Source: Roseivirga sp.
GTDB taxonomy: Bacteria; Bacteroidota; Bacteroidia; Cytophagales; Cyclobacteriaceae
Length of the DNA stretch: 64,000 bases
Assembly: GCA_021404565.1 (NCBI GenBank)
Contig: JAAWWF010000016.1
Location: 248,001-312,000, forward strand
Direction: 5' to 3'
Under the pieces are notes generated by a model. The model was not told the origin of the DNA. It was given only the letters and a program-made list of their open reading frames with translations, and did no database searches. Shown in pieces: positions 4,013 through 29,868 of this stretch. Position 1 is the first letter of the stretch, and each line of letters begins with the position of its first letter. Made by a program: the position numbers and the translations under genes.

Positions 4013-4043
4013 TATTTAAACTTGAAACATTCCTCTACATTTG
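4013..4043 (+). promoter_or_regulatory. Candidate sucA promoter
   Basis: TACATTTG at 4036-4043 matches the -7 element TAnnTTTG. The -33 box is weak (TATTT near 4013-4017). The position, about 28 bases before the sucA ATG, fits a short leader. Confidence 0.45.
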
Positions 4044-4071
4044 TTGTTGTATTGTCGTAACTGACTGAACA

Positions 4072-6813
4072 ATGGCCGATTACTCGTATTTAAGCAACGC
4101 TGACCCTAGTGCTCTTGAGGCACTATACCAGCAATTCAAACAAGATCCAGCCTCAATTGACGAAGGTTGGAAGAAATTTTTCGAAGGATTTGAGTTTGCG
4201 CAGCAGACTTTCCCTATGCTTCCGTCAGATAACGGACCCACCAAGGCTTCTGTAGCCGGTGGCCATGTTAACGAAAAAGAAATTCAGGTCCGAAAGCTTA
4301 TTCATGCTTACAGAACCAGGGCACACCTTAGATCAAAGACCAACCCGGTCAGAGAAAGAAAGGACAGAAAGCCTATTCTTGACCTGCACTACTTTAATCT
4401 TTCTGATGCCGATCTGAACACAGAATTTCAGGCCGGTGAGGAAATAGGCATAGGCAAGGCGACTCTTCAAAAAATTATCGATAGCCTTAAGCATATATAT
4501 GAAGGTACGGTAGGTATTGAATACATGTCGATTCGTGACCCTGAAAAGCTTCAGTGGATCAGGGACAAAATTGAAAAAGAAGCTTTGGCCTTTGCGCCTT
4601 CAGCAGAGAAGAAGCAACGCATTCTTAATAAGCTGAATGAGGCGGTTGTATTTGAAAACTTCCTTCATACTAAATACCTCGGTCAAAAGAGATTTTCACT
4701 GGAGGGGGGAGAAACGACTATTCCTGCCCTTGATGCGATCATTAATAAGGGGGCTGAGCTTGGAGCCGAGGAGGTTATGATTGGCATGGCCCACCGTGGA
4801 AGGCTGAACGTGCTGGCCAATATCATGGGCAAGACCTATGAGCAGATTTTCAACGAGTTTGAGGGAGGCGCTACACCCGACCTTACCATGGGTGATGGTG
4901 ATGTAAAATATCATCTCGGATTTTCGAGTCAGGTAGATACTGAAAGCGGCAAAAAAGTTGATCTGAAACTAGCACCAAACCCTTCTCACCTGGAAGCTGT
5001 CAATCCCGTAGTGGAGGGCTTTGTTCGTGCCAAGCTCGATGGCGAATACAACAAGGATCAGAAAAAGATAATCCCTATACTTATTCATGGTGATGCAGCC
5101 ATTGCCGCACAGGGCATAGTCTATGAAGTGGTGCAAATGGGTAAACTGGAAGGTTACAACACGGGAGGAACCATCCATTTTGTGATCAACAACCAGGTAG
5201 GCTTTACTACTGACTTTGATGATGCCCGTTCGAGTATTTACTCTACAGATGTGGCTAAACTGGTAGACGCACCCGTACTGCACGTAAACGGAGATGACCC
5301 TGAAGCTGTGGTATTCTGTGTGGAATTTGCTACTGAATACAGACAAAAATTCAATCGCGATATTTTTGTGGACATGGTATGCTACAGGAGGCACGGGCAT
5401 AATGAAAGTGACGAGCCTAAATTCACACAACCTTCTCTTTATAATAAGATATCAAAGCACCCTAATCCGAGGGAAGTATACAACAAGACCCTGATTCAGA
5501 GAGGGGATGTAGATGCTCAACTTGCCAAAGGCATGGATAAGCAATTCCGGTCTTTGCTTCAGGACAGATTAAATCTGGTAAAGCAAAAACCACTACCCTA
5601 TGTTTATCAGGCCCTTGAAGAAGACTGGAGAACCCTCCGAAGATCTACCCCTGTCGATTTTGAGAAGTCTCCCGAAACGGGAATTAGTCAGGAAACCATG
5701 GAAATCGTGGCAAAAGCCATCACCACAGTGCCTCAGGGTTTCAAGCCTATAAAACAAATTGAGAAGCAGCTGAAGCAGCGCAATGACATGTTCTTTAAGG
5801 ACAAGCAGCTCAATTGGGCGGCTGGTGAACTACTGGCTTATGGCTCATTGCTATTGGATGGAAAAAAGGTACGACTAACAGGTCAGGACGTGCAGAGAGG
5901 CACATTCTCGCACAGACATGCCGTGCTGCATGACGCCAACACGAACGATGCCTATAATAACCTAAATCATCTTGAAGGTGCCGAAAACAAATTTGAGATT
6001 CACAACTCACTGCTTTCGGAATTTGCCGTAATGGGTTTTGAGTTTGGCTATGCCATGGCAAACCCCAACGCTCTGACCATTTGGGAAGCACAGTTTGGTG
6101 ACTTTGCCAATGGCGCCCAGGTGATGGTGGATCAGTTTGTATCCTGCTCTGAGACCAAGTGGCAACGCATGAACGGCCTTGTGCTGCTCCTACCTCATGG
6201 CTATGAGGGCCAGGGACCTGAGCACTCCAATGCACGTCCTGAAAGATACCTGCAGCTTTCTGCCGATTACAATATGATTGTGGCCAATATCACCACCCCA
6301 TCCAACTTCTTCCATGCATTGAGAAGACAGCTGACCTGGGAGTTCAGAAAGCCACTGATTGTCATGTCACCTAAATCTTTATTGCGCCACCCGAAAGCGG
6401 TATCACCTGTTGGGGAGTTCACCGAGGGCGGTTTCAGAGAGGTTATTGCCGATACCTACGTATCTACACGATCAGTCAAAAAAGTAGTGCTTTGCTCTGG
6501 CAAAGTGTATTTTGACCTGCAGGAAAAACAGGAAAAGGATAAACGAAAGGACGTGGCACTCATCAGGGTGGAACAACTCCACCCCTTCCCGAAAAAGCAG
6601 ATAGACAAGCTGCTGGACAAATATAAAAATGCTGAGTTCTATTGGCTGCAGGAAGAGCCTGAAAACATGGGCTATTGGGGATTCATCCAAAGAGCCTATG
6701 CAGAAAGGGAGCTCACATTGATTTCGAGAAAGGCAAGCGCGTCACCGGCAACCGGTTACGCAAAACAGCATGCCCTTGAACAAAATGAATTAATAGAAAA
6801 AGCCTTCGCTTAA
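4072..6813 (+). CDS. sucA: 2-oxoglutarate dehydrogenase E1 component
   Basis: SucA is the thiamine-diphosphate-dependent subunit that decarboxylates 2-oxoglutarate in the TCA cycle and passes the succinyl group to lipoyl-E2. The 913-residue protein begins with the short E2-binding helix segment (ALYQQFKQDPASIDEGWKKF). It then shows VMIGMAHRGRLNVLANIMGK, the ThDP/metal region HGDAAIAAQGIVYEVVQM with downstream VINNQVGFTTD, and the transketolase-like domain FEFGYAMANPNALTIWEAQF. The C-terminal domain ends in the normal QEEPENMGYWGF region. It is 14 bases before sucB in a three-gene operon. Family assignment is secure. Confidence 0.97.
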   Translation: MADYSYLSNADPSALEALYQQFKQDPASIDEGWKKFFEGFEFAQQTFPMLPSDNGPTKASVAGGHVNEKEIQVRKLIHAYRTRAHLRSKTNPVRERKDRKPILDLHYFNLSDADLNTEFQAGEEIGIGKATLQKIIDSLKHIYEGTVGIEYMSIRDPEKLQWIRDKIEKEALAFAPSAEKKQRILNKLNEAVVFENFLHTKYLGQKRFSLEGGETTIPALDAIINKGAELGAEEVMIGMAHRGRLNVLANIMGKTYEQIFNEFEGGATPDLTMGDGDVKYHLGFSSQVDTESGKKVDLKLAPNPSHLEAVNPVVEGFVRAKLDGEYNKDQKKIIPILIHGDAAIAAQGIVYEVVQMGKLEGYNTGGTIHFVINNQVGFTTDFDDARSSIYSTDVAKLVDAPVLHVNGDDPEAVVFCVEFATEYRQKFNRDIFVDMVCYRRHGHNESDEPKFTQPSLYNKISKHPNPREVYNKTLIQRGDVDAQLAKGMDKQFRSLLQDRLNLVKQKPLPYVYQALEEDWRTLRRSTPVDFEKSPETGISQETMEIVAKAITTVPQGFKPIKQIEKQLKQRNDMFFKDKQLNWAAGELLAYGSLLLDGKKVRLTGQDVQRGTFSHRHAVLHDANTNDAYNNLNHLEGAENKFEIHNSLLSEFAVMGFEFGYAMANPNALTIWEAQFGDFANGAQVMVDQFVSCSETKWQRMNGLVLLLPHGYEGQGPEHSNARPERYLQLSADYNMIVANITTPSNFFHALRRQLTWEFRKPLIVMSPKSLLRHPKAVSPVGEFTEGGFREVIADTYVSTRSVKKVVLCSGKVYFDLQEKQEKDKRKDVALIRVEQLHPFPKKQIDKLLDKYKNAEFYWLQEEPENMGYWGFIQRAYAERELTLISRKASASPATGYAKQHALEQNELIEKAFA

Positions 6814-20009: not shown

Positions 20010-20852
20010 ATGTCTTGGTTTCAGCGTAAAGTAAAGGGTATCACTACCCCCACTGAACAAAAAAAAGATGCTCCTGATGGACTATGGTTTAAGACCCCTA
20101 CGGGTAAAATCGTCCATACAAGGGAGTTAAAGAATAATGCTTATGTAAGCCCTGAAGATGGCTTTCATGTGAGAATCGGCTCTAAAGAATATTTCGAAAT
20201 TCTTTTTGACGATAACGCCTTCACTGAGCTGGATGAGAAAATGACCTCAGGAGATCCCCTGGAATTTGTGGATAGCAAGCCTTATCCAAAACGCATTGTT
20301 GCCACGCAAAAGAAAACTCAGCTTCAGGATGCCGTACGCTCTGCCTACGGCAAAATGAACGGGCAAGACCTGGTGGTTTCCTGTATGGATTTCTCCTTTA
20401 TTGGTGGCTCGATGGGCTCCGTAGTAGGCGAGAAAATAGCCAGAGCTATTGATCATGCTCTCAAGACGAAAACGCCTTTCCTTATGATTTCAAAATCAGG
20501 AGGTGCGCGTATGATGGAAGCAGGTTATTCGCTGATGCAAATGGCCAAAACTTCCGCCAAGCTGGCCAGACTTGCCGAGGCTAAGGTTCCTTATATCTCT
20601 TTGTTGACTGATCCTACTACTGGTGGAGTAACGGCTTCATATGCCATGCTGGGAGACTTCAATATTGCAGAACCCGGTGCCCTGATCGGTTTTGCAGGTC
20701 CTCGTGTCATCCGCGATACAGTAGGTAAAGACTTACCTAAGGGTTTTCAAAGTGCCGAGTTTGTTCTTGATCATGGTTTCCTTGATTTTATTGTAGACAG
20801 AAGGGACCTGAAAAAACAATTGACCACTTTGCTGAAAATGCTGCAAGACTGA
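20010..20852 (+). CDS. accD: Acetyl-CoA carboxylase carboxyltransferase beta subunit
   Basis: AccD with AccA transfers the carboxyl group from carboxybiotin to acetyl-CoA, giving malonyl-CoA for fatty acid synthesis. The 280-residue protein has the crotonase-like core: [14 protein letters not shown]-like [46 protein letters not shown] and [15 protein letters not shown]. The N-terminal four-cysteine zinc finger of the E. coli enzyme is missing: the equivalent stretch is [15 protein letters not shown] then [10 protein letters not shown], without any cysteine. I believe this is common in Bacteroidota, but I cannot verify that here. It lies divergently from the TetR-KASIII operon, another fatty-acid-type gene. 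Confidence 0.95.
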
Positions 20853-21032: not shown

Positions 21033-21908
21033 ATGCGTGGAATACTTACTTTTTTCGCTTTTTTGATCACCTCTCAGTCAGTATTGAGTCAAACTCAAAT
21101 AGAGGTGCCTTTGATCAAGGACCCTAATGCCAACGCCTATCATCTGATGGCCTCATTGAATGGCGAAGAGTATGATTTTATTTTCGATACCGGTGCTTCT
21201 GGTCTGTTGATTAATAAAGCGGTATTTGATGACCTTACCCGCAAAGGCAAGCTGACCCAGACTGACTTTCTTGGTACCTCAAAAGCAGTGATAGCCAATG
21301 GCAGTACCATCGATATCAATGTGGTGAACATCCGTAGTCTGGAAATTGGCGGGCAGGTATTGAATGATTTACGAGCCGGAGTGGTGGACAATAACAATGC
21401 GGCCTTACTCTTTGGTCAGGATGCTCTTTCAAAATTCGGATCGGTAACCATTGACTACAATCAGGGCAAGCTTATACTCACCACCAACCCTGCCGGGACC
21501 AACACGACTACTCCCCCTGCCCAAACAGCTCAAACCACCCTGCTGAACAGTCTTAAAGAAATTAAACTGATTCCCTGCAGTGCTGATGATCAGGGCACAT
21601 TAAATGACCTGAGGAGCATTCTGGAATCAGCCCCAGAGCTAAAGCAGGTGAAAATCTCTGAAGAGGCTCAGGTGCCTCCTCAACGGGCTGTGAACAGAAT
21701 TACTGAGGGCACAATTACCATTCGCTATTTCAGTCAAAAAGATCAGGCAGTAGCCGATTCTGGGGAGTTGGCGACTCTATTGGATGCCTTCCTCACGCAA
21801 CATGATACGGCTTTCAAACCCAGTGCCCTGGTAAGAGAGAACATGCTTTCTTCTTTCAACAACAGATCATTCCCTGATTACCTGGAGATCTGGGTAAGGA
21901 AACAGTAA
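21033..21908 (+). CDS. Secreted retropepsin-like aspartic protease
   Basis: The 291-residue protein has a signal peptide (MRGILTFFAFLITSQSVLS) and a single-domain aspartic protease of the gag-asp/pepsin-like type. The catalytic motif is DFIFDTGASGLLI at about residues 48-60, followed by a second half ending FGQDALSKFGSVTIDYNQGKLIL. Such single-domain enzymes act as dimers. The C-terminal third, after a Thr/Pro linker near residue 160, has no recognised family. It has charged segments and ends PDYLEIWVRKQ. It is convergent with the DUF2233-type operon, with 7 bases between the stop codons. No partner gene is evident. Confidence 0.83.
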   Translation: MRGILTFFAFLITSQSVLSQTQIEVPLIKDPNANAYHLMASLNGEEYDFIFDTGASGLLINKAVFDDLTRKGKLTQTDFLGTSKAVIANGSTIDINVVNIRSLEIGGQVLNDLRAGVVDNNNAALLFGQDALSKFGSVTIDYNQGKLILTTNPAGTNTTTPPAQTAQTTLLNSLKEIKLIPCSADDQGTLNDLRSILESAPELKQVKISEEAQVPPQRAVNRITEGTITIRYFSQKDQAVADSGELATLLDAFLTQHDTAFKPSALVRENMLSSFNNRSFPDYLEIWVRKQ

Positions 21909-21915
21909 ACCAAGC

Positions 21916-23112
21916 TTAATTCTTCTTAGATACTCCAATCATCACTCCAAATCCCCCTCCGGGCTCGGTACGTTCAATTTCCGGCAGGTAGGTCTGGCTG
22001 ATCGCGCCATCGAGGTAGAGGGCATTTTTACAACCCATTTTTTCAAATGCTTTGGCAAGTTCATAAAAGCGCACCCGGGTTTCTGAAATGATAAAAACGA
22101 GTTCCTGATTCTCGTTCACTCCCACACCACTACGGATATGGAAATTGGGGGAGTCTTTCATAAACTTAGAGTTCATTTTCCCATTGGTCAAAAGCATAGG
22201 GCCGGACTGGGTCGCATAGCGGATTCCGCGTCTTTCATAGCCTTTCAGGTCCTGTGTCCTGATTACATGCGGCTCTCCCTTGTCGGTTATCAAAAAGATA
22301 CCGTTGGGCTGCATATAAAAGTTTCCATAGCCTTCTCTTCGGGTATCGGCCTTTTGTAAAACCTTACCCTTTTCGATATACAGGCCCTGGGGACTTTTAT
22401 CGGGCTGATACATTCCTCCATTGGTCGCGAAAACTAGCAGTTCACCGCTCCTGGCAATGTCCTGGCCATAACTGACAAAATTATCATAAAGCTCATTCCC
22501 GCCATCGCGCCAAAACAAACGCACCTCACTTTTATTAGGATCCACCTTATACACCACAAAGCCACGCCCTTCCTCACTTTGAAGTCGGCTGACGGCATTC
22601 CCTGCTACTTTGAATTTATCCAGGTCTTTAACGACCGTGGCAGGTGCTTTCTCAGCTGCTTTCAGTTTATCGTTCTCCGCCTTCAGCCTGTTCACTTCTG
22701 ATTCCAGTGAGCTGACCTGATCTGCAAACTGATCTCGCTCTCTGACCAGTTCCAGATTTTTCTCATTCAGGCTACTAATTATATTGTTGAGTGAGTCCCT
22801 GGAAGTATCATCGGCTGAAAGATTTCCGACCAGCTTATTAAGCTCTTTGATGGAGTCCTGGGCTTGTTTGATTCTATTCTGATATACCTTGAGAGCAGGC
22901 GTCTTGGTGGCCAGCATCTGATTTAAAGAGTCAATTTCCGCAGTCAGCAGTTGCTCTTTGGCAGCATACTCAGCCTGGTAAATCGCACTTACAGAATCAG
23001 CTATCTGCTGTCGATTGGGACCTTGCTGTTGCTCTGTGGTATCTTCCACTTGCTTTTTACCACCACAGCCGAAGAGGCTGCAAACGACTAATAATATGAT
23101 GACCTTTTTCAT
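21916..23112 (-). CDS. Coiled-coil lipoprotein with phosphodiester-glycosidase-like domain
   Basis: The 398-residue protein has a lipoprotein signal ending at C16 (SLFGCGGKK). A long coiled coil (about 30-165) precedes a NAGPA/DUF2233-type domain (about 175-397). Family signatures are ATNGGMYQPDKSPQGLYIEKGK (NGG 231-233, shown in two parts), MQPNGIFLI, RYATQSGPMLL and LYLDGAISQTY (LDGA 367-370). In characterised relatives this domain cleaves GlcNAc-1-phosphodiesters; the substrate here is unknown. It is the last gene of a six-gene operon and starts 5 bases after its closest relative. All signature residues seem kept, so it is one of the two copies most likely to be active. The coiled coil may hold the domain away from the membrane or make oligomers. 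Confidence 0.85.
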   Translation of the reverse strand: MKKVIILLVVCSLFGCGGKKQVEDTTEQQQGPNRQQIADSVSAIYQAEYAAKEQLLTAEIDSLNQMLATKTPALKVYQNRIKQAQDSIKELNKLVGNLSADDTSRDSLNNIISSLNEKNLELVRERDQFADQVSSLESEVNRLKAENDKLKAAEKAPATVVKDLDKFKVAGNAVSRLQSEEGRGFVVYKVDPNKSEVRLFWRDGGNELYDNFVSYGQDIARSGELLVFATNGGMYQPDKSPQGLYIEKGKVLQKADTRREGYGNFYMQPNGIFLITDKGEPHVIRTQDLKGYERRGIRYATQSGPMLLTNGKMNSKFMKDSPNFHIRSGVGVNENQELVFIISETRVRFYELAKAFEKMGCKNALYLDGAISQTYLPEIERTEPGGGFGVMIGVSKKN

Positions 23113-23117
23113 AGTTA

Positions 23118-24551
23118 TTATTTTTTATAAGCAGATAATAGAATGGGTATGTCTGCATTAACCTTTTGATTCAGGTCTGATTTTACTCCTCTGATCAACA
23201 TCAAAGCGTTTGACCCTGAATTAAGCAGCATTGCCTCATCACAGCCGTGCACTTCAAAGAGTTTGGCAAAAGCCTGCAATGTCATTTGTCCCTGACCACC
23301 GGTAGAAATGAATATCAGACTGTTTTCCTCAGATGAATAGCCCATCCCTGTAAACTGCGAGCTCATGTTGCCCTGGTAAACAACTTTGCCTTCTGAAACC
23401 AACATACTGCCTGACTGAAATGCATGCTTGATCAGAGAAATATCGGTGAATACCGATTTGTATTTCGCTTGTGGCAGCAAGCCCACCTTATTATCTTTTG
23501 TAATATAAAATACTCCTTCGGCAATTACTCCATTTTCCGACATAGGGCTTTTCAGCTCTCCATTCAAAACAACCAGGCCTTTGTTCGTTCCGGTACCTCC
23601 ACCAGTACAAGCCAGCTTCAGCGTTCTATCAGGCTGTCGAAACAGACTCCAGAATCGTTCAGGGCCTTTCACTTCTTTGGTCACATTCAAATCCAGCCAG
23701 TAATCATTCATGGGCAATCTGGCCGAATAGATTTCAGGGGAACCAACAATGGGTTGGTCATCTTTTACAATAGCGCTCACAATACTGGTCGGATTTGTGC
23801 TCAATGCCTCAGTGTCCACAATCATCGCACTGAATCTATTGTTGAAAGTCCGACCCTTATCTTGCTTTCCATAAATTTCTGAGATGGCTCCATCGAGGTA
23901 GAGTGCATTTTTACAACCATATTTATCCTTGAACATGGAGGCAAATTCGTGCAGGTTTACACGGGTTTGGCTAATGGCAAACACTACGGTATTTTCATCG
24001 ATAATCCCCACTCCGTTTCTCACCGTCTGATTGACTGAACCTTCGGTAAAAGCGCTATGGATTTTACCATCGATCAAAAGCTGTGGGCCTGATTGCTGAG
24101 CATATCGGATTTCTTTTCCGGCCACGGCCTGTTCAAATTTATCAGCGGTAATGATCCCGGCTTTGTCATCATCATCGATGTAAAAAACACCGTTGGGTTT
24201 CAGAAAGAAATTACCGGCAGCGTTATTCAGATTTAATGGCCTCATCTGCTTCCCTTTCTCAATATACAGCCCTACGGGCTCCAGTCCGGGGTTAAAAATA
24301 CCTCCGTTCATCGCAAAGATCATCTCTCTCTTTTGCTTGTGCAGATGACCCTTAAGTCTGCTAAAATTGCTCAAAGGTTCTCCTTCGCTATCCTTCCAAA
24401 CCATCTGGATATTGGATTCACGCAGTTTCACTACATACACTTTATATAGCTTGCCTCTGTAGCGGATTTCCTCTACTTCACCGGCCTGCAGCACAGTGAG
24501 ACTGATGAAGAAAAAGACTATTGCCCAAACAAGCTGATACTGCTTAATCAT
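23118..24551 (-). CDS. Tandem phosphodiester-glycosidase-like protein, second copy degenerate
   Basis: From the ATG at 24551 the protein is 477 residues with an N-terminal signal/anchor helix. Domain 1 (about 30-248) has the full NAGPA/DUF2233 signature: FAMNGGIFNPG (NGG 82-84), LKPNGVFYI, RYAQQSGPQLLIDGK, ALYLDGAISEIY (LDGA 219-222). Domain 2 (about 280-475) follows the same plan but has lost it: CTGGGTGTNKG (315-325), FQSGSMLVSEGKVVY (378-392), AMLLNSGSNAL (440-450). So the protein is an internal duplication in which the second half is probably non-catalytic. It overlaps the preceding gene by 8 bases, and the next gene starts 5 bases after its stop. Confidence 0.85.
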   Translation of the reverse strand: MIKQYQLVWAIVFFFISLTVLQAGEVEEIRYRGKLYKVYVVKLRESNIQMVWKDSEGEPLSNFSRLKGHLHKQKREMIFAMNGGIFNPGLEPVGLYIEKGKQMRPLNLNNAAGNFFLKPNGVFYIDDDDKAGIITADKFEQAVAGKEIRYAQQSGPQLLIDGKIHSAFTEGSVNQTVRNGVGIIDENTVVFAISQTRVNLHEFASMFKDKYGCKNALYLDGAISEIYGKQDKGRTFNNRFSAMIVDTEALSTNPTSIVSAIVKDDQPIVGSPEIYSARLPMNDYWLDLNVTKEVKGPERFWSLFRQPDRTLKLACTGGGTGTNKGLVVLNGELKSPMSENGVIAEGVFYITKDNKVGLLPQAKYKSVFTDISLIKHAFQSGSMLVSEGKVVYQGNMSSQFTGMGYSSEENSLIFISTGGQGQMTLQAFAKLFEVHGCDEAMLLNSGSNALMLIRGVKSDLNQKVNADIPILLSAYKK

Positions 24552-25419
24552 AGTAATAGACCAATAGATTAGTGGCATCTCGGGGTTCTGCTTCGCCCAT
24601 CATATAACGGAGTTTAGACTTATCATCGTCATATACCTCGTAGATGTCATTTCCTCCTGTATCCAGGTTTACAATAGAGATAACGTCCATTTTCGACATG
24701 GCCTGTAACGCATTATCCGCAGCTTCATACAGGGTCATTTCCTTATCTACATTAAAGATGGCGTGAAAGAGGTCTCCATTGCGAAAACCCAGCACCAAAA
24801 ACCTACGGGTTGTGCTCTTTTGACTGCTGCGGGTCGGGTTGATCTTCAGCTCATTTTTGAATGCCAGCAAGTGACTTTGAAAAACAGTGGCATTCTCGTT
24901 TACCCCCCAATTCAGCAGCCTGGTTTTATCGTCCCGGGGGCAAATGGTTTTACCGATACTTGCCAGCGTGAGGTTGCACTCATCAATATCGGATACTCTG
25001 ACACCACCGGCTGCTTCTACGATTACCAGGGCATCCTTATCGCTTTCGATTTTACGATTTACGATCTTACCATTGTCTACACAGATACCCACTGGCTCAC
25101 TTTTATGAGAGAACCCTGTGCTGTAGCCTCCACTGGAAATAAGCACGATGTCTTTACCTTTCCGCCAGCTTTTAAATGTCTTGTAGGTATTGCCCGAGGC
25201 AAAATACTTCGCCTTGAGCTTTCCCTTGCTCCGGCCTCTCCACAGGAAAGTCGCATAGCCGTAGTTTCTTCTGCCCTTCTTCAGTTTGTAAACACCCACC
25301 TCTGCCTTGCGCAAAGCCTGGTGTTTTTCGAAAGAAAACTGTGCCTGAGCATTATGCCCAAAACAGGTAAGCGCCAATAAAACCAGGCTTACACAGGTGC
25401 TTATGCTCCTTCTACTCAT
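24544..25419 (-). CDS. Secreted divergent phosphodiester-glycosidase-like paralogue
   Basis: The 291-residue protein has a signal peptide (cleavage near AQAQ, residue 27). It follows the DUF2233 layout in altered form: IVLISSGGYSTGF (SSGGYS 95-100) at the NGG position, EPVGICVDNGKIVNR, and SIVNLDTGGNDIYEVY (NLDTGG 251-256) at the LDGA position. An Arg/Lys-rich KKGRRNYGYATFLWRGRSKG segment lies near residue 50. It is about half identical by eye to the next gene upstream, its tandem duplicate. Both neighbours overlap it by 8 bases. Whether it is an enzyme or a binding protein cannot be told from sequence. Confidence 0.78.
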   Translation of the reverse strand: MSRRSISTCVSLVLLALTCFGHNAQAQFSFEKHQALRKAEVGVYKLKKGRRNYGYATFLWRGRSKGKLKAKYFASGNTYKTFKSWRKGKDIVLISSGGYSTGFSHKSEPVGICVDNGKIVNRKIESDKDALVIVEAAGGVRVSDIDECNLTLASIGKTICPRDDKTRLLNWGVNENATVFQSHLLAFKNELKINPTRSSQKSTTRRFLVLGFRNGDLFHAIFNVDKEMTLYEAADNALQAMSKMDVISIVNLDTGGNDIYEVYDDDKSKLRYMMGEAEPRDATNLLVYYYD

Positions 25420-26281
25420 AGTAATACACTAACAAATTTGTGGCGCTGGAAACCGGCACAGATCCATTGAGAAAAGACATGGCCCTGTTATCGTCATTGT
25501 AGGCTTCCATAATGTCATAGGCTCCCCTGTCAAGATTCATAATGCCTACCACATCCAGCTTTCTCTTGGTGAGCGTGCTCAATACATCTTTGGCTGCACT
25601 GTACAGGGATACTTCCCGGTCTATTTCGAAGAGGATGTGCATCACGTTATTGTCTTTATCGGTAACCAGTGCCAGCATACCCCGCGATGCACGCTTAGAG
25701 TTACCATTGGAGTAGGTTCTGAGCTTATTGTCATAAGCCAGTAGATGGGTTTGAAAAATGGTAGCGGACTCCTGCCTGCCCCAGTTCAAAAGCATGATCT
25801 TATCCTTGATAGGGTTGACCCTTTTGCCAAGGCTACCAAGGTACAGATTACCTTTTTCAACATCTGATACGCGTACACCACCAACAGCTTCTACGATCAC
25901 GAGACCGTCCATTTTCTGATCAATGGCGCGGTTTACGATCTCGCCATTGTCTACACAAATGCCAATGGGAATACTGTTATTGCTATAGCCAGAGCTATAG
26001 GCGCCACTGGAGACCAGCACAATGTTTTTGTTGCCTTTCCAGCTCATGAATTTCTGAAAGGTGTTACCTGAGGCAAAATATTTGGCCTTGATGCGCTTAC
26101 CACTTTTAGTACGGTCCATCCATATGGCATTGCCATATCTTGTACCCCCTTTAGATAGTTCGAATACATTCACATTGCCATCGCGAAGTGTCGCTTTGCT
26201 CGAGAGGCTATACTGTGCCTTAAGCTCAGAGCAGAGCAACAGAGGCCATAGGCTAAGCAGGACTAAATAACGGTTGTACAT
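25412..26281 (-). CDS. Secreted divergent phosphodiester-glycosidase-like paralogue
   Basis: From the ATG at 26281 the protein is 289 residues; the frame continues 141 bases upstream, but the ATG directly precedes a signal peptide (MYNRYLVLLSLWPLLLCSE). It is the closest relative of the following gene: KRIKAKYFASGNTFQKF and GICVDNGEIVNRAID occur in near-identical form in both, and both end TNLLVYYY plus an acidic residue. At the key positions it has VLVSSGAYSSGYS (91-98) and GIMNLDRGAYDI (248-256), so it differs further from the NGG and LDGA signatures. An 8-base overlap couples it to the next gene. Function unknown. Confidence 0.78.
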   Translation of the reverse strand: MYNRYLVLLSLWPLLLCSELKAQYSLSSKATLRDGNVNVFELSKGGTRYGNAIWMDRTKSGKRIKAKYFASGNTFQKFMSWKGNKNIVLVSSGAYSSGYSNNSIPIGICVDNGEIVNRAIDQKMDGLVIVEAVGGVRVSDVEKGNLYLGSLGKRVNPIKDKIMLLNWGRQESATIFQTHLLAYDNKLRTYSNGNSKRASRGMLALVTDKDNNVMHILFEIDREVSLYSAAKDVLSTLTKRKLDVVGIMNLDRGAYDIMEAYNDDNRAMSFLNGSVPVSSATNLLVYYYE

Positions 26282-26307
26282 ATTAGTAAGCGTTTTTGGT
26301 TTCAGAT

Positions 26308-26994
26308 TTATGTTTTTCGAAGTTGCCTGAGTCTGGAGAAAAGGCGAATTCGTTTGCGGTAAATGAATAAGAGTACAAGTAAGGGTAAACCGATAAAGGT
26401 GAGTGCCCAGAACCACCTGCACATCGGATCACACAAGCCATTGGAACAGTCAAGAATACAACGCGTTTTGAAGCGCGTGAAAACGTAGTCGAAGTTGCCC
26501 TGCTTGATATTCATGATGAATTTTTCCTTGTCAGAAACAGGAATACTGATGCTATACTGAGCCGTCTTGAGTTTGTCGATCAGGGCCAGCAGTTCCGGAT
26601 CTTCCTTGTCGAGAGATTCATTATTCAGTCCGTTTTGAACTGAATCACTCAGAGCCTGGAGCAGTACATCGCCAAGAATCTGAAAGTTCATATCCTCAGC
26701 GTTCATCAGCGCTATGCCCAGAGACACCTCCTTGTCCAGCTTTTTGGTGTCTTTATTATCTATAGGGGCAGCTTCAAAGTGGATACCGTAGAGCGTTTCA
26801 AGATGCACCCTCGTATCCATTGACTGGCTATCGAGCCAAACTACCAATTTCCGCAAGGAGTCCAGGTCATACAATCCCGGACTTGAGGCATACCGCTGAT
26901 AGTCGATACCATCCTGAACCGAAGCACTTTGCCTGGCGGTGATACTAAAGGGAATAAGGAATGTGAGGAGTAAATAGATTCTTATTCGGGTCAT
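26308..26994 (-). CDS. Membrane-anchored secreted protein of unknown function
   Basis: The 228-residue protein has an N-terminal signal peptide (MTRIRIYLLLTFLIPFSITA) and a C-terminal membrane helix (about 192-212, FWALTFIGLPLLVLLFIY) with a basic cytosolic tail RKRIRLFSRLRQLRK. The outer part is helical and contains a DSLRKLVVWLDSQSMD segment. Just before the membrane there is a cysteine-rich CILDCSNGLCDPMC (residues about 178-191) that may form disulfides or bind a metal. The N-in/C-in-like topology with one anchor helix fits a periplasmic component fixed in the inner membrane. Start and stop overlaps with the LamG-OmpA gene (4 bases) show the same operon. No family recognised. Confidence 0.75.
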   Translation of the reverse strand: MTRIRIYLLLTFLIPFSITARQSASVQDGIDYQRYASSPGLYDLDSLRKLVVWLDSQSMDTRVHLETLYGIHFEAAPIDNKDTKKLDKEVSLGIALMNAEDMNFQILGDVLLQALSDSVQNGLNNESLDKEDPELLALIDKLKTAQYSISIPVSDKEKFIMNIKQGNFDYVFTRFKTRCILDCSNGLCDPMCRWFWALTFIGLPLLVLLFIYRKRIRLFSRLRQLRKT

Positions 26995-28580
26995 TTGAGT
27001 TTGAGAATAGTTACTTCGACTCTCCTGTTCTCTGCCTTCTTCTTATTTGTCGAGTTATCATTACGCGGATCGGACCCTCCGAACCCCTTGGTTTTTATTC
27101 TGTTTTCCTCTATCCCATTAGCGACTAAAATGCGCTTTACTGCATCAGCACGTTCCAGAGATAGCTTTAAGAGCATGTCTTTGCCTCCGAAATTATCAGT
27201 ATGACCATCCAGTCTGATTAAAGCTCCCGGATAGGTCTTCATCCAACCGACCAGCTTGACAAGCGTAGGTTCATAGCCGGGCTTGAGGTCTGAGGTGCCT
27301 TTTGTAAACTCAAGATAACGAAGAACGAGCCTATCACCCACTGATACTGAGCTGGTTTCGAAAGGGGAATAATCGGGTACAATAATACCTTCAACCCCGG
27401 AAGCTTCCCTTGTTACAAAAACGGTATCACGTTCTACAATCCTCACCGTATCCGGAGGTACTCTTATACGCACGGTATCCCGAATCTGGTCATTTCTGGT
27501 TATATAAACCGTATCTGTTCTGAACACCTCAAGGGTATCATATTTTACCACTTCTCTGAAGACCGTATCATATTTGATTACTTCTTGTATCCGCTCTATC
27601 GTATCTCGCTGGTATACGTACAAGGTATCGGTTTTAGGTACTTCCAATCGCAGGGTATCCGTTTTATAAACCGTGAGCGTATCGGTATTGAATACTTGTA
27701 CTGTGTCACGCTCGACAACAGTGACCGTATCGGTTTGGTAAATCGTTTTTTCCACCTCAACAGTATCTCTTACATAGACCATAACAGTATCCGGTAAAGC
27801 AGGGGTCGAAGGCGCAGTAACCGGAATAGAAGGGTTATTGGAAGCCACAACGGTACAGTTCCCTACTGTACCCTGTTCGGGTTGTCGGTACAGCCGGCCC
27901 ACTTCAGAGGTGCTCAGTGCGCGGTTATAAATTCTTAAATCGTCAATAAGCCCATGGTGCATCTCCAGATTACCGGGAATATCTCTGCCAATCTCCAGAG
28001 GTTGGTTATTAGGCATTAATGTTTCGGTAAAAGGAAAATTCTGGATCAACTCATCATTGATGTAGGTCTTTACACTTTTACCGTCATAGACCATCACGGT
28101 ATGATACCATACGTTGGCAAGTATGGGCACATCCACATTTTCTGTAAATGCCGTGTTGATAGATACAGTTTTGGAGGTTACCTGAAAGCGATAATGGGGT
28201 GAGTTGGCAGCCTCCGTGGGCCTATTTCCTTTTACGCAAACAGTAAACCACATCAGGCCGTAGGTATTCATTTTTCCTCGCTTGGGCTTAATCCAAGCCG
28301 AAATGGTCAGCTCATTTGTCGGGCTGTTAAGGCTGCTGGATGAGGGCACACTTACAAAGGAATCCGACCCATCTAAGGCCACAGCACTACAGGCATTGCC
28401 AAATCTATCTGCTTCGTAAAGTGTATTACCGATGATATTTCCATCATTCCCAAATTTGCTTTCATCCTTGGTGGAATTGTTAAAAGTAAGGTTGAGCACC
28501 AGTCCTTTTTTTAAGGACTGTGCCTGGGATGACCAGGGAAACAGGAAGCACAACGCAAACAAAAAACAAGCTCTCACCAT
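26991..28580 (-). CDS. LamG-like/OmpA surface protein with DTV-repeat stalk
   Basis: The 529-residue protein starts with a signal peptide (cleavage near SQAQ, residue 21). Residues about 25-235 are a LamG/concanavalin-like domain (GLVLNLTFNNSTKDESKFG, LTISAWIKPKRG, LIDDLRIYNRALSTSEV). Residues about 264-389 contain fourteen DT[V/L/I] repeats at 8-11-residue spacing, a probable beta stalk. Residues about 405-529 are an OmpA C-terminal domain that should bind peptidoglycan (LIRLDGHTDNFGGKDMLL, LSLERADAVKRILVANGI, NRRVEVTI). It is the first gene of the six-gene operon and probably links a glycan-binding head to the cell wall. Confidence 0.88.
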   Translation of the reverse strand: MVRACFLFALCFLFPWSSQAQSLKKGLVLNLTFNNSTKDESKFGNDGNIIGNTLYEADRFGNACSAVALDGSDSFVSVPSSSSLNSPTNELTISAWIKPKRGKMNTYGLMWFTVCVKGNRPTEAANSPHYRFQVTSKTVSINTAFTENVDVPILANVWYHTVMVYDGKSVKTYINDELIQNFPFTETLMPNNQPLEIGRDIPGNLEMHHGLIDDLRIYNRALSTSEVGRLYRQPEQGTVGNCTVVASNNPSIPVTAPSTPALPDTVMVYVRDTVEVEKTIYQTDTVTVVERDTVQVFNTDTLTVYKTDTLRLEVPKTDTLYVYQRDTIERIQEVIKYDTVFREVVKYDTLEVFRTDTVYITRNDQIRDTVRIRVPPDTVRIVERDTVFVTREASGVEGIIVPDYSPFETSSVSVGDRLVLRYLEFTKGTSDLKPGYEPTLVKLVGWMKTYPGALIRLDGHTDNFGGKDMLLKLSLERADAVKRILVANGIEENRIKTKGFGGSDPRNDNSTNKKKAENRRVEVTILKLK

Positions 28581-28944: not shown

Positions 28945-29868
28945 TCAAAAGAAACTGATAATAAGGAAGGCCGATGAGCTGGCCACCAAAACCCATAGCA
29001 CCGTACCAAACAGCAAGGGTTTATAGCCAATGGTTCTAAGCTTAGTCAGCCCCAGGGTGGTGCCAATCAGAAAAAGCACGATGGTCATAAGGGTTTTGGA
29101 AAGCTGGAAAATAGCCGTACCCAACCAATCGGGAATAGACAGCCAGTAGTTAATAACTACGGCCAAAACGAAAAAGAGTACAAACCAGGGGAATTTCATG
29201 TGCTTGCCACGCTTATTCAGCAATGAAAGAATCAGCATTACTGGAATGATCCAAAGTACACGGGCGAGTTTAGCCGTAGTGGCCAGTTCCAATGCCTGCT
29301 GACCATAGACGGATGCAGCACCCACCACAGAGCTGGTATCATGAATGGCCACGGCACACCAAAGGCCAAATTGTGACTGCGTCATATCTAAAGCAGCGCC
29401 CAGACCTGGAAAAATAAAGATGGCCGCAGCATTCAGAATGAATACCACACTTAGGGCCACCGAAATATCTTTGACAGGCACATTCATGACGGGAGCCACC
29501 GAGGCAATCGCGCTCCCCCCACAAATGGCAGTACCCGAAGAGATAAGGAAGGACAGATTACGCTCCAGACCGATCCATCTGGCCAGTAGCAAGCCAAGTC
29601 CTAAAACCATTATGACTGAGCACATGATAAGCAGGAGACTATTAGTACCGGAAGCGGCCGCTTGTTCGACATCTATACAAAAACCCAGCCCGATTACCGC
29701 GACCTGCAACAGTCGTTTTGTAATGACGGAAGTATCTTTGAAACCGGATTCGCCAAAGAGATTTCTATGTCCAAAGCCTATCAGCAATGCCAGAGGTGGG
29801 CTGATTACAGGCAGCGCGCAAAGTGCAGCTCCCACAAAAAACAGGACTTTCCTAGCTGGAATACTCAT
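28945..29868 (-). CDS. YeiH/UPF0324-family anion exporter
   Basis: The 307-residue membrane protein has about ten hydrophobic helices and the family signature SSGTAICGGSAIASVAPV (about residues 110-127). Other conserved segments are GLGFCIDVEQA and AIHDTSSVVGAASVYG. The family is usually annotated as putative sulfate exporter (YeiH, PSE family) and has been linked to export of sulfite or sulfate in sulfonate degradation. It overlaps the preceding PLP-enzyme gene by 4 bases and is third in a LysR-enzyme-transporter series. The substrate is not shown; a sulfur oxyanion is the favoured inference. Confidence 0.88.
   Translation of the reverse strand: MSIPARKVLFFVGAALCALPVISPPLALLIGFGHRNLFGESGFKDTSVITKRLLQVAVIGLGFCIDVEQAAASGTNSLLLIMCSVIMVLGLGLLLARWIGLERNLSFLISSGTAICGGSAIASVAPVMNVPVKDISVALSVVFILNAAAIFIFPGLGAALDMTQSQFGLWCAVAIHDTSSVVGAASVYGQQALELATTAKLARVLWIIPVMLILSLLNKRGKHMKFPWFVLFFVLAVVINYWLSIPDWLGTAIFQLSKTLMTIVLFLIGTTLGLTKLRTIGYKPLLFGTVLWVLVASSSAFLIISFF

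Follow-up and report, generated by a model that had tools for sequence, protein, structure and literature searches.

An accessory seven-gene envelope module of Roseivirga in which predicted divergent NAGPA-fold proteins accompany ordinary ones

Within a 64,000-nucleotide stretch of the 8.57-Mb genome of Roseivirga sp. (order Cytophagales; GCA_021404565.1, contig JAAWWF010000016.1, positions 248,001 to 312,000 of the forward strand), hereafter called the window, lies an accessory envelope module of seven genes: gene 1, gene 2, A, B, C, D and the protease gene 7 (Table 1). Comparison with other genomes leaves the coherence of this gene set well supported. Its core across Bacteroidota would be a helical protein of the periplasm (here gene 2), in most cases with an inner-membrane anchor, that is paired with divergent proteins of the A/B family and joined by one or more ordinary NAGPA modules (here D and C1, the first half of C) and, in about half of the loci, by a LamG protein. 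A and B are predicted, from a model of B, to be a subfamily of the NAGPA fold that has so far gone unannotated, and the proteins of the block are probably enzymes acting on phosphate-linked sugars.

The evidence for the fold of A and B is structural in the first place. An AlphaFold2 model of B from a 31-row alignment has a predicted local distance difference test score (pLDDT) of 91.2 and a predicted template-modelling score (pTM) of 0.87. A Foldseek search with this model gave 12 matches at E ≤ 0.001, of which the best is 3ohg (7.8e-12); every one is either a DUF2233/NAGPA entry or the NAGPA-like 5h3k. 5h3k is a Synechocystis protein whose sequence aligns weakly to the NAGPA profile (E 0.49). 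A sequence search of the PDB gave no significant relative; it returned coiled-coil matches and, as the sole family hint, 5h3k (E 0.49). A is 47% identical to B. All 40 A/B sequences compared, among them near copies and the window's own two, share six residues without exception: G117, Q181, R205, N251, D253 and G255. When aligned by profile with a classical NAGPA set of ten sequences from the order, R205 falls near HPRT and N251-L-D253-T-G255 on NLDGGGS; A and B retain R and N-L-D-x-G, without N-G-G or G-P.

The initial annotation of this DNA had suggested a system of active and binding-only copies, without naming which were which. Altered copies do exist, as described below, but a binding-only role is not supported for A and B, given R and N-x-D-x-G in every sequence of the set and identities above those of D and C1. 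Between the window and Roseivirga sp. UBA6061, the closest named relative found, A is 92% and B 90% identical, followed by the protease (87%), the LamG-OmpA protein (82%), D and C1 (79% each), gene 2 (72%) and C2, the second half of C (64%). The ratio of non-synonymous to synonymous substitution (dN/dS) of A between the two species is about 0.03, with NG86 dS being saturated or undefined for most genes. Because of the invariant residues, the highest sister-species identities of the block and the low dN/dS, we regard A and B as conserved and possibly catalytic. The idea that they are decaying copies was rejected on account of the invariant motif and the same identities.

The remaining modules are recognizable by Pfam. 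The genome has three matches to PF09992 (NAGPA; cut-off 25 bits), and all of them are within the operon. Gene by gene, the profile scores D at 94.9 bits and C at 125.7 bits in total over two stretches, so that D and both halves of C lie above the cut-off; B reaches 15.3 bits, under it, and A has no match. The five NAGPA/DUF2233-type modules initially proposed are nevertheless borne out, by PF09992 for D, C1 and C2, by the fold model for B and by its identity to B for A. So is their division into two that keep NGG and LDGA (D and C1) and three with altered signatures (C2, TGG/LNSG; B, SSGG/LDTG; A, SSGA/LDRG). In alignments, the N.GF/M, GP, R and LDG motif residues are intact in D and C1. C2 is without the R and the D, both in the window and in UBA6061, at positions which we take to be catalytic in NAGPA, and the half of the Flammeovirga C protein that matches C2 shows none of the motifs. 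Judged by its motifs, C2 is the clearly degenerate module of the block. Elsewhere, a different altered copy, distinct from C2 and with LES in place of LDG, occurs in seven loci and forms one clade (support 100/99), three of its seven sequences (L050, L052 and L054) being near copies. As C2 is degenerate here and the LES clade is found elsewhere, the pairing of intact with altered NAGPA modules is recurrent, though not universal. The D protein is taken to be a lipoprotein from an LFGC lipobox recognized by eye, and its residues from about 23 to 170 give many weak matches to coiled-coil families in Pfam, all under the cut-off.

How widely the set recurs was assessed in several samples. The A/B family is rare and patchy: it was found in 4 of 99 genomes of a sample of relatives, in 9 of 390 genomes of the order (the window's own included) and, in a phylum-wide sample, only in the window's own genome (1 of 395). 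A scan of named genomes gave 29 loci with A/B, in Flammeovirga, Aureispira, Phaeodactylibacter, Adhaeribacter, Dokdonia, Hymenobacter, Chitinophaga, Saprospiraceae and others. Single contigs of metagenome-assembled genomes labelled Verrucomicrobia, Neomegalonema and Campylobacteraceae also carry A/B; misbinning may explain them, and the Neomegalonema locus stands alone in its class (1 of 240, itself). The 29 loci are partly non-independent, since near copies (L050, L052 and L054) and two loci of a single assembly (L037 and L042) are among them, and the profiles used for the counts that follow were built from the loci themselves.

In 26 of the 29 loci a member of the gene-2 family accompanies A/B, adjacent in 20 and fused in 6 (profile search). 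No member was found in L034, L042 or L052 (this last locus lies close to the end of its contig), and L055 has a weak match (8e-7) that is confined to the C-terminal part. Although the profile was trained without the fused N-terminal domains, they score 8e-34 to 5e-15; plain BLAST with gene 2 as query recovers 14 of the 29 loci. Ordinary NAGPA is present in 25 loci (missing in L034, L042, L047 and L056) and LamG in 15. Three matches are excluded from these counts: in L042 a short one to LamG on the reverse strand, and in L047 one to LamG at a distance of 7.6 kb and one to NAGPA on the fusion itself. Elsewhere in their genomes, L034, L042 and L047 do have NAGPA, which for L047 is unaccompanied by the other parts. 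Another contig of the L034 genome holds LamG together with an intact (LDGAIS) and an altered (LES) NAGPA, so the halves of the set co-occur even when unlinked. As a control for chance, PF09992 was counted throughout the order: it occurs in 109 of 390 genomes and in 7 of the 9 with A/B, where 12 of 14 matches fall inside the A/B cluster (genomes of 3.9-8.6 Mb). A chance cluster was rejected, as the set recurs over the 29 loci. Both points on which the initial annotation had staked its idea of a coherent system came out in its favor as far as the checks were run, the predicted NAGPA fold holding for B and the gene set being kept together in relatives.

Two further features were seen at these loci. 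In L034 (7950-9752), a gene for a TPR-histidine kinase (HisKA, HATPase_c) is followed after about 60 bases by the lone A/B gene, which is a possible signaling link. A family with Ig-type domains, CL9, is present in 9 of the 29 loci, not always on the same strand, and accompanies one branch of the module. Its members (e.g., L039 6626-9004) are long secreted proteins, some with Ig_7 and with a C-terminal end that looks barrel-like by eye; no Pfam match spans their length.

Gene 2, the partner of A/B, matched no Pfam, NCBIfam or PADLOC family. It has a signal-like N-terminus (by eye), a transmembrane helix at residues 194-212 (hydropathy) and a basic tail. Its first description as a membrane-anchored, Cys-rich protein holds in the window, where a Cys-rich stretch directly precedes the helix; the Cys stretch was not seen in the aligned relatives. 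By hydropathy, several relatives have N- and C-terminal helices, and the fusions with A/B have two central transmembrane helices or none, every one of these topologies being consistent with the helical domain and A/B residing together in the periplasm. The natural fusion of L047 models as one confident unit (pLDDT 92.8, pTM 0.89), as would be expected if the two domains held a fixed position relative to each other. Foldseek of this fusion gave no clear structural relative of the helical domain: after the NAGPA entries come 6ozd (E 0.012) and then matches at E of at least 0.12, with helical-repeat proteins at 0.3 or above. Evolutionary distances of gene 2 and A/B correlate (r 0.52, 26 loci, permutation p 0.0005), and those of A/B and ordinary NAGPA do so more weakly (r 0.27, 23 loci, p 0.016); L050, L052, L035 and L029 were omitted as incomplete sequences or near copies.

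Gene 1 encodes a secreted protein in which a LamG domain, a stalk and an OmpA peptidoglycan-binding domain follow in that order. The stalk has 14 DT[VLIF] repeats starting at residues 264-385; there are 13 in the LamG-OmpA protein of the sister species and 0-3 in the other LamG proteins counted. Elsewhere HYR repeats take the place of OmpA (L039, L041, L044, L053 and L075). The LamG proteins of L031, L032, L033, L036, L038 and L057 have no C-terminal family at E ≤ 0.001, and those of L037 and L043 no convincing one, OmpA being a separate gene in L037.

The layout of the block agrees in part with its first description. Six close-set genes do lie on the minus strand: genes 1 and 2 overlap by 4 bases (26991-26994), 26 bases separate gene 2 from A, A and B as well as B and C overlap by 8 bases, and C and D are 5 bases apart. 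These figures use the ATG starts of A (26281) and C (24551); the mechanical open reading frames were over-long (A to 26422, C to 24578), and several comparisons took C from 24548, one codon short. A scan for promoters and terminators gave no clear excess over shuffled sequences (16 versus 14.2 ± 3.7 and 9 versus 7.6 ± 3.0). The six-gene unit itself had to be abandoned, as did the surface as an established location, for which there is no sorting or shaving evidence. We count seven genes because the Flammeovirga cluster opens with a homologue of the convergent protease, immediately followed by LamG-OmpA, and because the empty site of two sister genomes is without all seven. Within the genus, moreover, protease and operon are present or absent together: of 19 genomes, 2 have the protease, and A/B occurs in exactly these. 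These two carriers (G000 and G009) have genomes of 8.2-8.6 Mb, the other 17 of the sample 2.1-5.8 Mb. The protease sequence contains FDTGAS and matches TIGR02281 at 5.6e-9, under the cut-off of that model. At L026 a trypsin-like protease gene (4039-4920) heads the A/B cluster; different proteases may fill one role at the cluster head, aspartic in Flammeovirga and trypsin-like in L026.

Table 1. Genes and boundaries of the accessory module (positions in the window)
Feature	Coordinates	Strand	Basis or remark
Gene 1, LamG-OmpA protein, 529 aa	26991..28580	-	Pfam Laminin_G_3 1.1e-24, OmpA 3.3e-19
Gene 2, helical periplasmic protein with C-terminal transmembrane helix	26308..26994	-	hydropathy; homology to N-terminal domain of natural A/B fusions
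Gene 3 (A), secreted, predicted divergent NAGPA fold, 289 aa, LDRG variant	25412..26281	-	same family as modeled B
Gene 4 (B), secreted, predicted divergent NAGPA fold, 291 aa, NLDTG	24544..25419	-	AlphaFold2 and Foldseek
Gene 5 (C), secreted; C1 intact, C2 degenerate NAGPA module	23118..24551	-	PF09992, motif table
Gene 6 (D), lipoprotein, coiled-coil-like region and intact NAGPA	21916..23112	-	PF09992 8.2e-27, residues 227-376
Gene 7, secreted retropepsin-like (clan AA) aspartic protease	21033..21908	+, convergent	PF13975 6.5e-14
Whole accessory insert, accD to permease	20853..28944		genes span 21033-28580; empty site in two sister genomes
Flank, accD	20010..20852
Flank, permease gene	28945..29868

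Besides UBA6061, eight other sister genomes have the permease, and the region around it was examined in five of them. In L062 and L063, accD and the permease gene are some 80-90 bp apart, which is the empty site. At the same site, L060 (8988-11226) and L061 (6536-8136) have a different insert, roughly 2.2 kb long in the former and 1.6 kb in the latter, which encodes a radical SAM protein (the L060 copy matches PF04055 at 2.5e-25) and an 81-residue membrane-like protein. For L064, the permease side was retrieved, and there is no accD there. The interval between accD and the permease gene is thus a possible insertion hot spot. The base composition of the insert shows no clear anomaly against its surroundings and hence gives no sign of a recent arrival; the sisters may have lost the block.

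Our preferred reading, held tentatively and at somewhat less than even confidence, is that the module forms an envelope-spanning complex which would recognize and cleave sugar-1-phosphodiesters. In such a complex, which would span the wall, gene 2 and A/B would sit at the inner membrane, the OmpA end of gene 1 in the wall, and the lipoprotein D, with its coiled coil, at the outer membrane. LamG would bind a glycan; D and C1 would hydrolyze the sugar-1-phosphodiester bond, like animal NAGPA, and A and B would probably do likewise on a different substrate. C2 might serve as a non-catalytic copy for binding or dimerization, and the protease might mature or turn over one of the components. What the cell could gain is the tailoring of its own phosphoglycans or the stripping of those of others. 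A more novel reading, which we consider rather unlikely, gives the new branch, placed on its inner-membrane helical scaffold, catalytic activity towards a phosphodiester substrate of its own (e.g., lipid-linked sugar phosphates) and couples it through the wall and outer membrane to ordinary and altered NAGPA modules and a LamG receptor, so that the two branches would process one glycan in turn across the envelope.

Several observations weigh against the proposed complex or against parts of it. The Foldseek superpositions of B on NAGPA/DUF2233 entries are loose (TM-score 0.46-0.62, root-mean-square deviation 7.9-10.8), and the profile-profile probability between A/B and classical NAGPA is 8.6%, which is weak alone; with the local intact copies it is 63-84%. 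Two genomes, G121 and G187, have A/B without PF09992, the L056 genome has no PF09992 match at all, and L042 and L056 are without other ordinary parts at the locus. No LamG was found in 14 of the 29 loci, some of them at contig ends. OmpA follows LamG in 3 of the 16 LamG proteins scanned (the window, L029 and L030), the LamG protein of L035, with its broken frame, being outside the 16. The initial picture of a peptidoglycan-fixed system therefore fits these three, but not the 13 that have no OmpA match, and peptidoglycan fixing is a local trait rather than a general one. The distance correlations partly reflect common ancestry or shared species history. Finally, assembly into a complex is suggested by gene order and predicted topology.

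Three other explanations of the block were weighed. The first, in our estimate not very likely, is that the cell uses the module on its own wall or capsule polymers, whose phosphodiester-linked sugars would be trimmed or recycled, with A/B acting at the inner membrane on exported intermediates. The membrane-anchored partner beside A/B in most loci, the fusions with two transmembrane helices, the secreted or lipoprotein NAGPA proteins and the OmpA wall domain would all suit such a role. Its rare and patchy spread is, however, unlike that of core wall biogenesis, and no recurrent neighbor family stood out in the locus maps beyond CL9 and the parts of the module. A search with Stealth_CR2 for a substrate-making enzyme was also empty, but it is uninformative because its control was silent as well.

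Alternatively, the module could serve foraging or predation by removing phosphate-linked sugars from foreign polymers (e.g., teichoic-type or algal phosphoglycans) caught by LamG, which we think unlikely. Among the carriers are Flammeovirga, Aureispira, Phaeodactylibacter and Saprospiraceae, groups of polymer degraders or predators, and LamG and HYR are surface-type domains; yet there is no SusC/SusD or glycoside hydrolase family among the Pfam matches listed for the seven genes, and a tie of A/B to an inner-membrane protein would be odd for this role. Conflict or defense at the envelope, with NAGPA, a lectin domain and a protease on a patchy island directed against phages, toxins or competitors, is improbable: the empty site in two sisters and the different insert in two others, the presence of a protease as partner (an aspartic one here and in L030, and in L026 a trypsin-like one encoded upstream) and the placing of NAGPA in a predicted conflict system with TelC (PMC12419801) speak for it, but PADLOC found no component of a known anti-phage system beyond coiled-coil and MotB/OmpA look-alikes, and carriage by phages or plasmids is unsupported, as no relative was found in viral contigs (query A5), plasmids (P0003) or phages (P0008).

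No description of this gene set, or of any multi-gene system based on NAGPA, was found in the open-access literature, in agreement with the initial annotation, although NAGPA-family genes are common in the order. In NCBIfam, all matches listed for the seven proteins stay below the cut-off of their models (for gene 1, 25 of 43 matches were listed). The recurrence of much of the set in scattered, distant relatives points to an uncharacterized multi-part envelope system. With its two fold branches, a dedicated membrane partner and natural fusions, the conserved set offers a tractable entry to the role of NAGPA proteins and predicts specific interactions.

Among known systems, the ShfP-type cell-surface calcineurin-like enzymes (PMC11488536), which occur as fusions with laminin G, Ig or NAGPA domains, are similar in coupling an enzyme with laminin G or Ig domains at the cell surface. 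Here the parts are separate genes of an operon, and no calcineurin-like domain is among the Pfam matches listed. The multidomain TelC-NAGPA proteins of spore-forming Bacillota, a predicted conflict system, likewise join NAGPA with diversifying surface-binding domains, as outlined in PMC12419801, but they are single large proteins with a lipocone enzyme, and the parts of that account available to us mention neither an A/B-like branch nor a helical partner in the inner membrane. The closest comparison is with the NAGPA/DUF2233 family itself, of which D, C1 and C2 are members by Pfam and with which A and B share the predicted fold, the R and N-L-D-x-G. In contrast to its ordinary members, A and B fall under the Pfam cut-off, are without N-G-G and S-G-P and are paired with a helical membrane protein, and here several such modules come together in one gene set.

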